NCBI RefSeq assembly: GCF_900637635.1
Contig: NZ_LR134383.1
Span: 1,519,501 to 1,583,500 of the forward strand
DNA: 64,000 nt
Source of the DNA: Legionella jordanis
GTDB taxonomy: Bacteria; Pseudomonadota; Gammaproteobacteria; Legionellales; Legionellaceae
Reading direction: 5' to 3'
Notes under the pieces: generated by a model
Database searches by the model: none
Told to the model about the DNA's origin: nothing
Seen by the model: the letters and a program-made list of their open reading frames with translations, nothing else
Translations under genes and position numbers: made by a program
Part shown: piece after piece, positions 27,941 to 34,781 of the stretch
How positions within the stretch are numbered: position 1 is the stretch's first letter
Layout: the number at the start of each line of letters is the position of its first letter

Positions 27941-28936
27941 TCAAGCCATTTCCGTAGGTAATTGCTGTTCAACCTCAGCTAACCTGTCTAAAGCTTCATA
28001 CAAAGAGGTGAGTTGCTTGCATTGTTGAGCCTTTAAAAGCATTTCTTTCCAATATTTGGCCCCAGCCAGTCCATGGGCAAAATTAAAAAGGGGTTTAAGC
28101 AAAATACTTAAAGGTATACCCTCTGAAAATTTCTTTTCCAGGTAGTTTAAATAGGTCTTAAAAATCTCATAACGTGAAGCAACCGGGGTTTCTGGATAAA
28201 AATACTGATGGATGTGGGCTAAAGCATAAGGATTTTGGCAAGCCAAGCGCCCCAGCATGACTCCATCTACCTCAGGCATATGCTGTTTGATTTCATCCAA
28301 ATTGCCAATATTTCCATTGATGACAATGGGCAAGTTTGGGAATTCCCGTTTAATTTGATAAACGTAATCATAGTGTAAAGGTGGGATGCTGCGGTTTTGC
28401 TTTGGGTTTAAACCAGTCAGCCAGGCCTTTCGGGCGTGCACGATTAATTTATCGCAGCCTGCGTTGATTAACTCCTTTGCGAAAGCTGCAAAATAATCAT
28501 AACTGTCCTGATGATCAATTCCAATCCTGGTCTTTGCAGTAACAGGAATGCTAACTGCCGATTTCAAGGCTTTAATGCAAGCCGCAACTCGTCCAGGTTC
28601 CGCCATCAAACAGGCCCCAAAGCGACCTGCCAATACGCGGTCACTGGGGCAACCCAAATTGAGGTTAATCTCATCAAAACCAAGCTCTTGAGCAAGCCTT
28701 GCAGCGGCTACCAATTTTTCTTCATCGGCACCACCTAATTGCAACGCGAGAGGATGTTCGCATGGATCAAAGCCTAGAGCCCGGTCAGGGTTATTAAGCA
28801 CTGCTCCAGTGGTTTGCATGTCGGTGTATAACAAAGCCGATGGGGCAATAAGACGCATAAACACACGAAAATGCGTGTTCGTCCAGTCAACCATAGGTGC
28901 AATGGCTAAAGGTGAAAACAGGGCTGGGAATGACAA
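27941..28936 (-). CDS. dusA: tRNA-dihydrouridine synthase A
   Basis: This 331-residue TIM-barrel flavoenzyme has IAPMVDWTNTHFR, the catalytic Cys in NLGCPSDRV, and HARKAWLTGLNPKQNRSIPP, the signature of DusA rather than DusB or DusC. It reduces uridine 20/20a in the tRNA D-loop with NADPH. No ATG stands before the FMN motif, so the start is probably TTG 28936, which sits about 27 bases after the predicted transcription start. A stop lies eight codons upstream. Confidence 0.93.
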   Translation of the reverse strand: MSFPALFSPLAIAPMVDWTNTHFRVFMRLIAPSALLYTDMQTTGAVLNNPDRALGFDPCEHPLALQLGGADEEKLVAAARLAQELGFDEINLNLGCPSDRVLAGRFGACLMAEPGRVAACIKALKSAVSIPVTAKTRIGIDHQDSYDYFAAFAKELINAGCDKLIVHARKAWLTGLNPKQNRSIPPLHYDYVYQIKREFPNLPIVINGNIGNLDEIKQHMPEVDGVMLGRLACQNPYALAHIHQYFYPETPVASRYEIFKTYLNYLEKKFSEGIPLSILLKPLFNFAHGLAGAKYWKEMLLKAQQCKQLTSLYEALDRLAEVEQQLPTEMA

Positions 28937-28969
28937 ATCAATGCTGCTTTACTAATCAGTTAGTTTCAA

Positions 28970-28998
28970 ATTATACAATTAAAATGATCAGCTGAAAA
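28970..28998 (-). promoter_or_regulatory. Promoter of dusA
   Basis: On the minus strand, TTTTCA, 17 bases, perfect TATAAT. The dusA start codon lies 34 bases after the -10 box, which supports the TTG start. Confidence 0.5.
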
Positions 28999-29310
28999 CC
29001 TTAAGACATGCATCATAGGTTATGATAAATAGCAATGTGGGGCTGAGTCCAAGCGGCATTCATTCATTTAAGTATAGGTTTTAGATTATTTTTAATGATG
29101 AAGAAAAATAATTAGTAAAAGCATTCGAATGATTTTCTTTTAGAGTGCAGCCATGCAGTCGATGTGCCATTTAAGCCCATGACTTGTAAGGGTTTTAACT
29201 GCCTAAGACAAGGCCCATTCCGGATAACTCCCAATGTCACTTTTCTTTCAGCTACCTTGTAGTTACCATCCCCTCAGGCTATACCTATAAGAATGTTATA
29301 AGGATCTTTT
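28999..29310. other. Intergenic region before the kinase gene
   Basis: Roughly 310 bases between the divergent dusA promoter and the histidine kinase. I see no open frame of note, no tRNA and no clear hairpin. AAGGA at the right end is the ribosome site of the kinase gene, and CTATACCTATAAG about 35 bases upstream could hold its -10 box. Confidence 0.4.
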
Positions 29311-31758
29311 ATGCCAGAAAAGAAACTTAGCCGTCAGAAAAAATCTTCGGTCAGAGTCCCTCTTTTATCCCACACCAACAAAAGCGTGCTGTTAAGCATC
29401 ATCAAATCCTTACCCGGCAGTGTGTACTGGAAAGACAAAGATGGTAAATATTTAGGCTGCAATGAGGTTATGCTGCAAATGGCAGGCCTATCTTCTGTCA
29501 TTGGAAAAACTGATTTTGACATGCCTTGGGCGGATTCCGCTGCCTCTTTGCAGGAAAATGACCGAAAAGTCATGGAACTAAATATCCCTTTGGAAGTAGA
29601 AGAAACCGCGACACTTGCCTCAGGTGAAAAAGTCGTTGTGCTGACGAGAAAAGCCCCCCTTCACAATGAAGTTGGTGAAGTAATTGGCATTATCGGCATC
29701 TCACTCAACATTACTCAACGAAAGGAAGAAGAATCCTTCCTACGCTCAAGCCAAGAACAAATGCAATCCACCTTGGAAAACATCGTGGCCAACATGCCGG
29801 GACATGTGTTTTGGAAAGATAAAAATGGAGTGTATTTAGGGTGCAACAATCGTCAAGCTCAAAGCTTAGGTTTCCGTTTTGGCTATGAAATTGTTGGCAA
29901 AACCGATTTTGATTTACCTTGGGGAAACAACAAAGCGGAACTGTTTCGAAGACATGACAAGCTGATTATGGAAACAGGAACCACACAGATTATTGAGGAA
30001 AAAGCCCAAGTGGATGGCAAAGACGCGACGGTTCTCAGTCATAAATCCCCCATGCGAAACAAAGAAGGTGAAATTACAGGCGTACTGGGCATCTCTATTG
30101 ACATCAGCGATCGCAAAAAAATTGAAACTGAGCTCTATTATGCAAAAGAGCAGGCTGAAGCCGCAAGCCGTGCCAAAACTGAGTTTCTGGAAAACATGCG
30201 TCATGACATCAGAACACCGCTGACAGGAATCGTTGGGTTTTCTGAAATCATTAAATCGGAAGCCATTAACCCTCTTGTCAAAGAATACGCAGACAATCTC
30301 ATCGCCTCAAGCCATGCTTTGTTGGATTTAATGGATCAAATCCTTGAAGCGATACGTGTAAGTTCAGGCGAAATCCCAAAGGTTAAGAAAAAATTCGTTT
30401 TAAAAAACCTTGTACAGCAAGCCATTGATTTAAATATGGCCAAAGCAGCGTCAAAACAACTTAACTTAACGCTCGAATACAATGATGAAATACCTAAATA
30501 TCTCATAGGAGATAATGTAAGAATCCATCGTATTCTCCTTGAACTACTCAGCAATGCATTAAATTTCACAGATTCTGGATTCGTGAATCTAAAAGTCCAG
30601 CTCGCAAATCGGCATCATCGAGAAATCGTATTAAAATTGGTCGTTGAAGACAGTGGTATGGGGATTCCTAAAGACAAACAGGAAGAAATATTTCTCCACT
30701 TTAAACGCTTAACTCCATCCTATAAAGGAATATACAGAGGCGCAGGACTCGGGCTTTCCGTTATTAAACAATTTGTCGACGACATGGATGGAGAAATTTA
30801 TGTGGACAGTGAGTTGCGCAAAGGAAGCACATTTACTTGTGTTATTCCTTTAAAAGTTTCTCTTCTTGAAGACGACACAGGGCTTTCCAAAACCCAGGAA
30901 TTGGAACTCATTTCCTCATCCAATTTACCCAAAAACTCCACCCCTAACCCTGATAAAGTCGATAAACAAACTCATGTATTGGTCGTTGAAGACAATGCAA
31001 TTGCTCAAAAGGTTGCCAAAGTCATATTATCTCAATTGCAGTGTCAAGTTGATGCCGCCGTCACTGGCCAAGAAGCACTAAGTCTGTGTAGTAAACACGA
31101 ATACGATTTTATATTTATGGATATTGGACTCCCTGATCTTGATGGTTATCAAATCACTCGTCACATTCGTGCTCAAGAATTCACTAAAAACCACCACACT
31201 CCAATCATTGCACTTACAGCGCATGTCGGTGAAGAAGATAAGAAACGATGCATTTCATCCGGAATGAATGCGGTGTTGACTAAGCCCTTAACCCAAAAAA
31301 GCTGCAGTGAAATTGTGCACTCTTTTGCACCAAAGCAACAGGAATTGGGGAAATACATTTTGGCCTCCGACTTACCTCAAAGTGAGAAAGAACTATTTGA
31401 GTTAAGCTCATTTCCAATGCTAGACATTCAGGAAGGGATTAAAACCACTGGCTCAGAAGCCATGCTGGTAGAAATGTTGCAGTTTACGATAAGCTCTTTG
31501 CCGGATGATTTAACCCTCCTGAAACAGAACCATCAAGAGCAAGATTGGAAAAAAACGCAACAAATAGCGCACAAAATCAAAGGTGGTGTCGTCTATGTAG
31601 GAGCAATCCGACTAAAAATGGCTTGCCAATACCTGGAGCGCTACTGGAAAACAGGAGGCCGTGATTTATTGGAGCAGCTTTACGAACAACTACTCCAAAT
31701 CGCAAACGAGACTATTGTAGAAGTTGAACAATGGATAGAAAGGCAGCCATCCACTTGA
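29311..31758 (+). CDS. Hybrid sensor histidine kinase, PAS-PAS-HisKA-HATPase-REC-HPt
   Basis: The 815-residue protein has no membrane helix, so it is a soluble sensor. PAS 1 (about 28-145) and PAS 2 (about 155-270) are near copies (VYWKDKDGKYLGCNE and VFWKDKNGVYLGCNN). His298 in NMRHDIRTPL is the kinase His; NALNFTD, GMGIPKD and GAGLGLSV are the ATP boxes. Asp604 (FMDIGLPDLDG) is the receiver site and His754 (AHKIKGG) the HPt His, making an ArcB-style four-step relay without its final regulator. AAGGA precedes the ATG. The stop lies 7 bases before the next gene on the other strand. Signal and target are unknown. Confidence 0.92.
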   Translation: MPEKKLSRQKKSSVRVPLLSHTNKSVLLSIIKSLPGSVYWKDKDGKYLGCNEVMLQMAGLSSVIGKTDFDMPWADSAASLQENDRKVMELNIPLEVEETATLASGEKVVVLTRKAPLHNEVGEVIGIIGISLNITQRKEEESFLRSSQEQMQSTLENIVANMPGHVFWKDKNGVYLGCNNRQAQSLGFRFGYEIVGKTDFDLPWGNNKAELFRRHDKLIMETGTTQIIEEKAQVDGKDATVLSHKSPMRNKEGEITGVLGISIDISDRKKIETELYYAKEQAEAASRAKTEFLENMRHDIRTPLTGIVGFSEIIKSEAINPLVKEYADNLIASSHALLDLMDQILEAIRVSSGEIPKVKKKFVLKNLVQQAIDLNMAKAASKQLNLTLEYNDEIPKYLIGDNVRIHRILLELLSNALNFTDSGFVNLKVQLANRHHREIVLKLVVEDSGMGIPKDKQEEIFLHFKRLTPSYKGIYRGAGLGLSVIKQFVDDMDGEIYVDSELRKGSTFTCVIPLKVSLLEDDTGLSKTQELELISSSNLPKNSTPNPDKVDKQTHVLVVEDNAIAQKVAKVILSQLQCQVDAAVTGQEALSLCSKHEYDFIFMDIGLPDLDGYQITRHIRAQEFTKNHHTPIIALTAHVGEEDKKRCISSGMNAVLTKPLTQKSCSEIVHSFAPKQQELGKYILASDLPQSEKELFELSSFPMLDIQEGIKTTGSEAMLVEMLQFTISSLPDDLTLLKQNHQEQDWKKTQQIAHKIKGGVVYVGAIRLKMACQYLERYWKTGGRDLLEQLYEQLLQIANETIVEVEQWIERQPST

Positions 31759-31765
31759 TCACTCA

Positions 31766-32527
31766 TTAATTTTCAATGGATGTCTGAACAACAGCTTCTT
31801 CTTTGATCTGAAATTCAGGATTAGCTTTAGCAGGGTACTTTTTAAAACGAAGTGCAACCGGCCTTAATAAAGTAGGATGAAGGGGTTTGATTAAGTATTC
31901 ATAAGTAGCGCCCATGGCTTTATTTCGACCGCTGGGATATACCTCAAAATCATAACCCTTTTGCGTCCATAAACACATGACTGCACATTCTTCAATCAAA
32001 TAATCCAGACAAAGCCTGAATGCCCGCTGTTGATCGATGTCTTCTTGGTTGTATCGACTTAAATATCGAGTTAAAAATTCCTCAATATTGGCATGGATTG
32101 CTTTCTGGTAAGCCTGATTCGTTTCGTACTCATTTTGCACACGCAAATGGCTGTTAATGTAATCAGTACTATTGTACCAATCGTCCCATCGCATGATATC
32201 TACTGGAATTGACAATTGGTTGATAGCCATCTCATTTCGCTTCAACCAATGATCCCCCTCCTCCACCGCTAATTGGTACAATTCATCGGGAGAAGCATCA
32301 TTCATAATACCAATGGTATGTCGTTGAACGCTATCATCAACGAGAATGGTGCACTGTTTGAATGAGGAGTTTATGAGTTTAATAACCGCTTCAAATTTGG
32401 CTCCCTCATGAATGGCCTGTCCAACACTAATTGGCATTAAGCAGGAGGATTGAGGGAATAATTTCCTTTCTTCAGGTGGATTTTCTCTAAAAGAAGCCTT
32501 AACAATTCGGTTATCAACTAAACTCAT
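31766..32527 (-). CDS. tRNA-dependent cyclodipeptide synthase, XYP type
   Basis: This 253-residue protein fits the cyclodipeptide synthase family, which joins two aminoacyl-tRNAs into a diketopiperazine. The nucleophile is Ser34 in MPISVGQAIHEG (AlbC Ser37), then LVDDSVQRH, the GDHWLKRNE segment, Tyr176/Glu180 in DYLIEE (AlbC Tyr178/Glu182), and Tyr197-Pro198 in VYPSGRN (AlbC Tyr202/His203). Gln37 at the Asn40 position plus Tyr-Pro marks the XYP subfamily rather than NYH. GGAGG lies seven bases before the ATG. The product cannot be read from sequence. No oxidase, P450 or methyltransferase lies next to it. A rejected alternative is a bare Rossmann class I synthetase relative. Confidence 0.85.
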   Translation of the reverse strand: MSLVDNRIVKASFRENPPEERKLFPQSSCLMPISVGQAIHEGAKFEAVIKLINSSFKQCTILVDDSVQRHTIGIMNDASPDELYQLAVEEGDHWLKRNEMAINQLSIPVDIMRWDDWYNSTDYINSHLRVQNEYETNQAYQKAIHANIEEFLTRYLSRYNQEDIDQQRAFRLCLDYLIEECAVMCLWTQKGYDFEVYPSGRNKAMGATYEYLIKPLHPTLLRPVALRFKKYPAKANPEFQIKEEAVVQTSIEN

Positions 32528-32621
32528 CCTTTAACCTCCATACGAATTATTTACGACCATTTAATCTATGCAACAGTCGCTAGAGGTCATATTCTATACC
32601 ATTTGACTTATTAATGTCCAG

Positions 32622-32751
32622 TTAATCTCTCATTCTATTAAGAAATTCGCCTTTAGCATTAAGCTCATCAACCGCGGGGCCAGCTTTGGCAGCAAGCAAT
32701 AAAGAGTTATTTATTAGAAAATTAGCTATCTGAGCATCGTTTAAACTTGTT
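32622..32751 (-). pseudogene. Possible C-terminal relic of a lost gene
   Basis: On the minus strand a frame without any start codon encodes about 42 residues ending in a stop, including SLNDAQIANFLINN and LLLAAKAGPAVDELNAKGEF. The composition is that of a normal soluble protein. A stop precedes it directly, so it can only be the tail of something decayed, or chance. Confidence 0.25.
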
Positions 32752-32974
32752 TACATATTCTATCGTTTTTCAACGGATTGGCCGGAAAATGCGAATACAA
32801 TGTTTATTGAAAATTTAAGTAGGGAAAAATTATTTACTACTAAAATATCTATTTAATTAAAATGAGCTCTTGTCATTGCAAAAATTATAAAAGAACGTTT
32901 CTTTAACATCACCGACATCATTTCTAAGGGTAACAGAGATAAATTCGGCGATTGAGTGTGTTGCACAATTTATG

Positions 32975-33020
32975 GCCTGGATAAACATCAATCTATATGT
33001 CACGATTTATTCATCCAGGC
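32975..33020. repeat. Inverted repeat with 8-base arms, near the recJ end
   Basis: GCCTGGAT and ATCCAGGC are separated by 30 bases. A second structure, the perfect 12-base palindrome GGTAAATTTACC, lies at 33030-33041 just before the recJ stop. There is no T-run after either, so a simple terminator is not clear; an mRNA 3' structure is possible. Confidence 0.4.
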
Positions 33021-33047
33021 ATTGAAATGGGTAAATTTACCTAAACC

Positions 33048-34781
33048 CTAGGCTGAAATAAGTTGCAAATTTTCAATAACCAACTGCAGGCGACTTCTCC
33101 CTTGATAGACATTCACATCCAGCTTATAAGCAGCATGAATTTGTTTGGCTCGATAGTTGGGCCATTGATTTAAATCAATATTAAAAGCAATGGCTTCGAA
33201 ACTGCCTCCCTCAGGATGGGCCAAAGTTAATTTAAGATGATTTTGCCCAACCAGACGCTGATCAAGAATTTCAAAGATGTTATCAAAGCAAGGCTCGGGA
33301 AATTGCTGTCCCCATGGACCTGCTTGTTGCAACAGCACTGCAGTTTCGATGCTTAGTTCATTAATGGTGAGTGAGCCATCTGTCCAAAGTTCAGCTTCAT
33401 ATTGGGCAGGATCAATATGCTTTTCCACTTCCCTTATAAACATTTGCTGAAAGGGTTTAAAATTTTGGGGAATTAAACTGAGACCGGCCGCCATGGCATG
33501 GCCGCCGAATTTGGTTATTAATCCGGGATTATCCTTATCTACAGCAGCTAACACGTCGCGAATGTTTAGACCGGCTACAGAGCGGGCCGATCCTTTTAGC
33601 TCAGAATCGCTAACTTGTGCAAAAGCAATAACGGGTCGATGATATCTCTCTTTTAAACGCCCCGCTAAAATGCCGATAACCCCTTGGTGCCAGTTTGGAT
33701 CCATAAGGCAAAGTGCGGCTGGCAAGTGATTGCTGTGCTCTATTTTTTTGCTTAATTGGTCTACGGCAATCATAGCCTGCTCTTTCATTTCTGCTTCAAT
33801 AAGGCGTCGCTCCTGATTAAGCTCATCAAGATGCGCAGCAAGCACTTTGGCCTTCTCCAAATTCTCACTAAGGAGACAATCGATTCCCAGAGACATATCG
33901 TCCAGCCGCCCTGCAGCATTCAGTCGTGGAGCGATCGCAAACCCCAAATCAGTTTCCCGTAAGCGCGCACAGTCCCTGCCGGCAATTTCTATCAAGGCCC
34001 GAATTCCAGGACGACATAAGCCCTGACGTATACGAGCTAAGCCCTGATTAACCATTATGCGATTATTTTGATCCAGAGGCACCACATCGGCAACCGTACC
34101 TAAGGCTACTAAATCAAGAAACTGTGCCATATTAGGTTCAGCCAGACCTTGTTCACTAAACCAGCCGCTTTGTGCAAGCTGACGCCTTAAGGCCAGCATC
34201 ACGTAAAAAATAACCCCCACACCGGCAATAGACTTGCTTGGAAAAGGGTCGCCTGCCTGGTTTGGATTTACGATGGCACAGGCCTTAGGCAGGATTTCTG
34301 CAGGTAAATGGTGATCCGTGACCAGTACATCAATGCCATGGGCATTGGCCGCATCCACTCCCTCAATACTGGCAATACCATTATCCACAGTGATGATGAG
34401 ATTAGGTTGCCATTTTTTTGCCACTTCGATAATGGCTGGGGTTAAACCATAACCAAAATCAAAACGGTTTGGGACTAAAAATTCAACGTTTGTTGCACCC
34501 ATTAAGCGCAAAGCAGAAACAGCGAGGGTTGTCGAGGTTGCTCCATCTGCATCAAAATCACCGACAATCAGGATTTTCTCTTGTTCTCTCAATGCTTTTT
34601 CAAGGCGAGAAGCCGCTTTCCCAATATCCATTAAATCTTTAAAAGGCAACAAAGCTTGAAGATTTTTATCGAGCTGGGCCTCATGAGTAATTCCGCGCGA
34701 GGCAAAAATCCGTTGTAAAAATTCAGGGTAACTGGACAATGACGCCAAGGGTGCGGGTACCTGTCGTTGTTTGATACGCAT
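33048..34781 (-). CDS. recJ: Single-stranded-DNA exonuclease RecJ
   Basis: The 577-residue protein has the DHH phosphoesterase motifs: VGDFDADGATST with the metal Asp residues, TVDNGIAS, VTDHHLPAE (DHH), and later GHAMAAGLS of the DHHA1 domain. An OB-type domain ends the protein. It degrades single-stranded DNA 5' to 3' in recombination and mismatch repair. It starts three bases after the stop of the rpfE-like gene, so the two are co-transcribed. Confidence 0.96.
   Translation of the reverse strand: MRIKQRQVPAPLASLSSYPEFLQRIFASRGITHEAQLDKNLQALLPFKDLMDIGKAASRLEKALREQEKILIVGDFDADGATSTTLAVSALRLMGATNVEFLVPNRFDFGYGLTPAIIEVAKKWQPNLIITVDNGIASIEGVDAANAHGIDVLVTDHHLPAEILPKACAIVNPNQAGDPFPSKSIAGVGVIFYVMLALRRQLAQSGWFSEQGLAEPNMAQFLDLVALGTVADVVPLDQNNRIMVNQGLARIRQGLCRPGIRALIEIAGRDCARLRETDLGFAIAPRLNAAGRLDDMSLGIDCLLSENLEKAKVLAAHLDELNQERRLIEAEMKEQAMIAVDQLSKKIEHSNHLPAALCLMDPNWHQGVIGILAGRLKERYHRPVIAFAQVSDSELKGSARSVAGLNIRDVLAAVDKDNPGLITKFGGHAMAAGLSLIPQNFKPFQQMFIREVEKHIDPAQYEAELWTDGSLTINELSIETAVLLQQAGPWGQQFPEPCFDNIFEILDQRLVGQNHLKLTLAHPEGGSFEAIAFNIDLNQWPNYRAKQIHAAYKLDVNVYQGRSRLQLVIENLQLISA

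Follow-up and report, generated by a model that had tools for sequence, protein, structure and literature searches.

A cyclodipeptide synthase gene of Legionella jordanis forms a conserved pair with the gene of a hybrid histidine kinase bearing VqmA-like PAS domains

The stretch of DNA considered here, a window of 64,000 nucleotides from the bacterium Legionella jordanis (contig NZ_LR134383.1, positions 1,519,501 to 1,583,500), carries a gene for a cyclodipeptide synthase (CDPS) of the XYP subfamily, next to a gene encoding a hybrid histidine kinase with two PAS sensor domains (Table 1). A preliminary description of this locus, made from the sequence alone, regarded the CDPS as an orphan, with no tailoring enzyme or regulator beside it. 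As set out below, the part of that description concerning an XYP-type CDPS without a tailoring enzyme has held, while the orphan status and the lack of a regulator have not, because the adjoining kinase is found beside the CDPS across the relatives of L. jordanis: it is a conserved partner, and the two genes together make up one module. The motifs containing the phospho-acceptor residues His298, Asp604 and His754 are all present in the kinase, in which Pfam finds neither a DNA-binding domain nor a membrane domain (no dedicated membrane prediction was made).

Table 1. Features of the CDPS-kinase locus, in positions of the window
Feature	Position	Strand	Basis
XYP-subfamily CDPS, 253 aa; Ser34 nucleophile, Tyr176/Glu180, Tyr197-Pro198	31766..32527	-	sequence and fold comparison
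Partner hybrid histidine kinase, 815 aa, PAS-PAS-HisKA-HATPase-REC-HPt	29311..31758	+	Pfam domains, motif check
PAS1, residues 33-139, VqmA-like sensor domain	29407..29727	+	Pfam
PAS2, residues 155-265, VqmA-like sensor domain	29773..30105	+	Pfam; best PDB sequence match VqmA, E 4.5e-10
HisKA-HATPase kinase core, residues 288-515	30172..30855	+	Pfam
Receiver domain (REC), residues 556-665	30976..31305	+	Pfam
HPt domain, residues 721-796	31471..31698	+	Pfam
7-bp gap, convergent stop codons of kinase and CDPS	31759..31765	.	
Stretch with the CDPS-kinase pair between dus and recJ	28937..33047	.	

Regarding the enzyme itself, its closest characterized relative is Fdum-CDPS of Fluoribacter dumoffii (PDB 5ocd), with which it shares about 80% identity, the Rossmann-type fold (root-mean-square deviation 0.7), the catalytic residues and the X-Tyr-Pro motif, so that the catalytic and subfamily positions named earlier are confirmed. 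The check with family profiles gave a mixed outcome, since both TIGR04539 (41.9 bits, E 8.2e-11, curated cut-off 45) and PF16715 (19.5 bits, cut-off 27) match the protein but score under their thresholds; these cut-offs are a property of the libraries and not of the enzyme, whose class assignment rests on the identity to 5ocd. Judged by sequence and fold, the open reading frame is a real XYP-type CDPS, an enzyme of a known kind and an orthologue of Fdum-CDPS, from which no essential difference was seen. In the segments that we take to line the CDPS pocket, the two proteins are the same at residues 25-41, 58-75, 111-120, 151-158 and 194-205, and differ within residues 170-187 by one change, Ala182 versus Ser. 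Given this near-identity of the pocket and the overall identity, the product of the window CDPS is likely cyclo(Gly-Gly), as Fdum-CDPS, which makes this compound, is described in PMC12945691 as consuming two Gly-tRNAs. According to PMC5816076, the XYP subfamily includes a cGG group (1 of 17 members characterized), and enzymes for which cAA is predicted as the main product are confined to Legionellaceae and have insertions and an extra C-terminal domain. The long CDPSs of the present set, defined as open frames of 340 aa or more, are perhaps this cAA group, the two being equated on size and taxonomy only.

The pairing was assessed by a profile search of 143 Legionellaceae genomes, the same 143 that an order-level search yielded. 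It returned 101 CDPS matches in 59 genomes, or 99 genes after merging double hits, and the earlier remark that XYP members are known from a few Legionella relatives was thus too narrow. A PAS kinase gene adjoins the CDPS gene or lies within 5 kb of it in 83 of these 99 cases. By position, at least 67 CDPS genes have a kinase PAS match within 5 kb, against 1.86 expected by chance when the PAS matches are placed at random; 23 of the 67 were typed in full and the kinase was the next gene in every one (23/23), the remaining 44 being counted on distance alone. The flanks of the other 32 CDPS genes were read, and 16 of them have a kinase or PAS gene as neighbor, including one with a gene in between (L080), one with only a kinase fragment (L063), one in which the contig ends inside the PAS gene (L074), and one with PAS and kinase in separate frames (L088). 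Among the 16 unpaired genes, 12 belong to tailoring operons of one type, one has a kinase 10 kb away (G112, L081), one lies at a contig end (L084), and two have no kinase. Of 14 named contigs, 13 have a relative of the window kinase itself next to the CDPS, among them those of L. shakespearei, L. anisa, L. bozemanae, L. parisiensis, L. steelei and F. gormanii, as well as L. tunisiensis (L019), where the kinase is in several frames; L. tucsonensis (L026) is the exception, with no kinase in the 16.7 kb fetched. On this conserved pairing, the label of orphan CDPS was rejected.

The association extends beyond the family. A class-level search of 369 genomes gave 21 with a match, 3 of these Legionellaceae, and 30 CDPS genes from outside the family were typed, an Endohaliclona plasmid included; one of the 30 class-search matches outside Legionellaceae (G276:C7, L179) showed no CDPS open frame when typed and was left out. 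A PAS kinase is the neighbor of 25 of the 30, counting one locus with only the PAS part before the contig end (L160) and one with a kinase in pieces 840 bp away (L175); the CDPS matches themselves are weak in L178 (21 bits), L177 (29) and L176 (37). A phylum-level draw of 398 genomes matched only the genome of the window. In the sponge symbiont Endohaliclona, the CDPS gene is followed by the kinase gene after 37 bp; the pair (L123, MK748464.1 1-11270) is carried by the renieramycin plasmid, a few kb from renA and renB, and its CDPS is annotated merely as a hypothetical protein. A CDPS on a plasmid is also mentioned for L. lytica in PMC11828895.

As for gene order, 28 of 85 typed CDPS genes stand in tandem with a kinase gene and always precede it, 24 are divergent from it and 12 convergent, and 21 are unpaired. 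Nine tandem pairs overlap by 4-71 bases as measured on the longest open frames, for which reason the true overlaps may be smaller. One locus (L121, G028:C6) has two CDPS-kinase pairs in tandem, with kinases in which Pfam finds no REC or HPt domain, and the partner kinases of L113 and L115 have a PQ-loop match ahead of their PAS domains, so that some partner kinases may be membrane-bound.

The CDPSs of the tailoring operons are a second Legionellaceae kind. The 12 found in one operon type (L065, L067-L072, L075-L079) have the gene families c0 and c1 beside them in 12/12 cases and c3 in 11/12, and these three families occur nowhere else in the clustered loci, hence in no paired locus clustered. 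Pfam typing, which covered L067 plus single genes of three other such loci, called in L067 a class V aminotransferase, an AMP-binding_C_2 domain (24.3 bits, cut-off 25) and a 2OG-Fe(II) oxygenase; these are operons of aminotransferase and AMP-ligase-like genes, 11 of 12 with the oxygenase, and some carry a transporter of the major facilitator superfamily (MFS). They resemble the CDPS tailoring clusters of the albonoursin and pulcherrimin type in sharing their first enzyme with the window module, which differs from all of them in having no tailoring enzyme, just as the 12 operon CDPSs differ in having no kinase. In agreement with the preliminary description, no tailoring oxidase, transferase or P450 lies beside the window CDPS, and a tailoring pathway at this locus was rejected on that ground; the genome scan for P450s that it had suggested gave matches only at 1489646-1489954 and 1696218-1697192, at least 61 kb from the CDPS at 1551269.

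The window has no MatE- or MFS-type exporter gene beside the pair or elsewhere. When the genes on the far side of ten paired CDPSs were scanned, two MatE and two MFS transporters were found (L114, L151, L152, L154), together with a methyltransferase (L066), a glycosyltransferase-8 match (L158), a phage-type integrase (L115), a beta-eliminating lyase (L105), a helix-turn-helix (HTH) protein (L123) and one gene without a match. In L114, L152 and L154 the transporter, the CDPS and the kinase follow each other in this order on one strand, an arrangement in keeping with export of the product. Mutual exclusion of pairing and tailoring would be too wide a claim in view of the tailoring-type genes of L066 and L158.

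The two genes have not only stayed together but diverged together, in one part of the kinase more than in the other. In a mirror test, for which 48 of 58 pairs were usable (10 were dropped for short or missing domains) and in which the PAS domain was the one adjoining the kinase core, CDPS distances correlated with PAS distances at r 0.84 and with core distances at 0.47, the partial correlations being 0.79 and 0.18. The contrast persisted in a thinned set of 31 loci whose CDPSs differ by 40% or more (0.56 vs 0.07), within Legionellaceae (34 pairs, 0.90 vs 0.50) and outside (14 pairs, 0.66 vs 0.08), with a bootstrap difference between the PAS and core correlations of 0.24-0.51. Locus pairs with similar CDPSs and different cores had similar PAS domains in 21/21 cases, and those with different CDPSs and similar cores in 0/109. 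Because CDPS distance follows the PAS domain more than the core, these kinases seem to have exchanged output modules, with CDPS and sensor kept together at the level of clades.

What kind of sensor this is can be gathered from its likeness to VqmA, the quorum-sensing receptor of Vibrio, whose PAS domain has as its ligand a small six-membered nitrogen ring, the autoinducer DPO. For both PAS domains of the window kinase, VqmA is the leading sequence match in the PDB; it is also the top VIA-align match, and it outscores the PAS domain of TodS in 62 of 64 partner kinases. L123 and L153 were omitted from a structure alignment of the PAS domains. Of the residues that we take to contact DPO in VqmA, namely Tyr36, Phe67, Phe99 and Lys101, the position of Lys101 is a lysine in 83 of 87 partner PAS domains. 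By sequence and model, the partner PAS domains are VqmA-type and those of the window kinase belong to the same subfamily as that of VqmA. The outputs differ: the window kinase has no C-terminal HTH as in VqmA, and carries kinase, REC and HPt domains instead. The source of the ligand would differ as well, since DPO needs threonine dehydrogenase, whereas the candidate ligand here would come from the CDPS encoded next door. VqmA is called vibrio-specific in PMC12802170; two Legionellaceae encode VqmA-like proteins of 240 and 243 aa (L183 1150-1872, G005; L184 1462-2193, G056), with 54% and 50% identity to the VqmA PAS domain and, as judged by eye, an HTH-like tail and a divergently oriented alanine-racemase-like gene.

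On balance, we favor a reading in which the window CDPS, as its half of the module, takes glycine from two Gly-tRNAs to form cyclo(Gly-Gly). The bare cyclodipeptide would most likely be the product that matters, as the module contains no tailoring enzyme, and would most likely bind the VqmA-like PAS domains of the kinase, whether within the cell that makes it or following its release and re-entry into cells. This would then alter the phosphoflow from His298 through Asp604 and His754 to some response regulator. The earlier suggestion of a bare diketopiperazine acting as a signal gains indirect support, as a possibility, from the co-divergence of the PAS domain and its likeness to VqmA.

Several observations weigh against this reading. 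Two Legionellaceae CDPSs outside the tailoring operon (L083, L087) and 5 of the 30 outside the family (L157, L163, L167, L171, L173) have no kinase, and the related genomes behind the pairing and distance counts are non-independent samples. The methyltransferase and the glycosyltransferase-like gene beside two paired CDPSs (L066, L158) mean that not every paired product need be bare. VqmA ranks only 46th in Foldseek's own order, the presumed aromatic contacts of DPO mostly differ in the partner PAS domains (F99 is Ser/Thr, Y36 mostly Gln/Met), and a VqmA-like PAS match at E 1e-3 occurs in 108 of 143 genomes against 59 with a CDPS, so that such domains are not exclusive to CDPS-linked kinases. 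In the mirror test, rank correlations are lower (PAS 0.58 vs core 0.20; thinned, 0.42 vs -0.02) and nearest neighbors agree in only 25 of 48 pairs; moreover, the PAS-coding end adjoins the CDPS in tandem and divergent loci, and a single recombination could thus replace the core and leave CDPS and PAS joined, with no functional tie involved. Lastly, among the matches listed, seven genomes (G076, G080, G081, G091, G092, G107, G113), each with another CDPS elsewhere, have an orthologous kinase, 65-67% identical, without an adjoining CDPS. Six of these kinases are full-length and intact, with a whole-gene ratio of nonsynonymous to synonymous substitution (dN/dS) of 0.10, as in five paired kinases; between the six and the five, dN/dS was 0.099 vs 0.034 in PAS2, 0.067 vs 0.054 in the core and 0.042 vs 0.077 in REC, and alike in HPt, a contrast that is only suggestive given the few, non-independent pairs. 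A receptor kept after loss of its synthase and a kinase with another ligand both fit these orphan kinases.

Among the other explanations, the kinase might sense a different cue and regulate the CDPS gene, switching on or off the production of a cyclodipeptide that acts elsewhere. Adjoining regulators often control their neighbors, and the 24 divergent CDPSs among the 85 typed share an intergenic region with the kinase; we nevertheless find this unlikely, as a DNA-binding domain is missing from the window kinase, the flank families that were clustered show no dedicated regulator recurring with the pair (the search went no further), the sensor and not the signaling core co-diverges with the CDPS, and the six kinases lacking an adjoining CDPS are under purifying selection. 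The cyclodipeptide might instead be an exported effector or competition molecule, for instance against protist hosts, with the kinase linked to it through a common life-cycle cue. Exporter-type genes beside the CDPS in 4 of the 10 paired loci scanned would agree with this, but it predicts neither the PAS-specific co-divergence nor the same association for 25 of the 30 CDPSs typed outside the family, and it seems to us quite improbable.

A further explanation, a mobile cassette in which the two genes are only carried along together, bears on the surroundings of the locus. In the ten congeners fetched, out of 22 genomes with a recJ match (that of the window included), dus follows recJ within about 180 bases in every case, and for this reason the CDPS-kinase pair appears to have entered or left the site as a single unit. 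This clean site, the nearby gene for a phage-type integrase in L115, and the spread of 62 paired loci over 25 flank contexts under the loosest rule for sharing a flank family, 31 under an intermediate one and 53 under the strictest, speak for mobility; yet adjacency persists despite differing gene order, the CDPS comes first in 28/28 tandem pairs and 12/12 tailoring-operon CDPSs lack the kinase, which leaves this explanation with little to recommend it. Scans of the locus itself gave no Rfam match at gathering score in 29000-33300, 7 promoters against 10.7 expected and 2 terminators against 3.9 expected in 28900-33100, a lower G+C (0.37) at 32000-33500, and nothing decisive in repeats or composition. 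Finally, a stress or defense role in which the CDPS, triggered via the kinase, would deplete charged tRNA is hardly credible, for although its family consumes aminoacyl-tRNA (PMC12945691), the catalytic residues are kept as in ordinary CDPSs and PADLOC, which has no model for CDPS, returned one weak 19.9-bit match to the kinase, on which anti-phage defense was rejected.

The module has counterparts in layout. We take CqsA/CqsS and LqsA/LqsS to be cases of an autoinducer synthase gene beside the gene of its sensor kinase, a linkage of synthase and sensor that the CDPS-kinase pair likewise shows across taxa; the synthase chemistry differs, as does the window kinase in having no membrane domain found by Pfam, although the L113 and L115 partners do have their PQ-loop match. 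PAS domains near CDPS genes were already noted in a 2018 paper, which suggested quorum sensing, and diketopiperazines are listed as signals in other bacteria in PMC13220807. The word kinase is absent from the main text of the two CDPS surveys searched for it, PMC5767969 included, and in the literature covered, with subscription papers outside the search, we found neither a description of a CDPS-PAS kinase pair nor a role given to bare XYP products, cyclo(Gly-Gly) among them. The new part is thus the module, in which a CDPS is kept together with a VqmA-like PAS kinase.

More tentatively, XYP CDPSs and VqmA-like PAS kinases may constitute a signaling family of Legionellaceae and other Gammaproteobacteria fed by aminoacyl-tRNA, in which each clade would make its own diketopiperazine (here cyclo(Gly-Gly) and, for the long-form clade, perhaps cyclo(Ala-Ala)), export it in some loci through MATE or MFS transporters, and read it by a co-evolving PAS domain with swapped outputs, while kinases without an adjoining CDPS would listen. 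A conserved partner with a VqmA-like sensor offers a concrete receptor candidate for CDPS products, and with it the earlier idea of CDPS cyclodipeptides as signals becomes directly testable by binding. If it is true, intracellular and symbiotic bacteria would draw on their pool of charged tRNA for a chemical signal.
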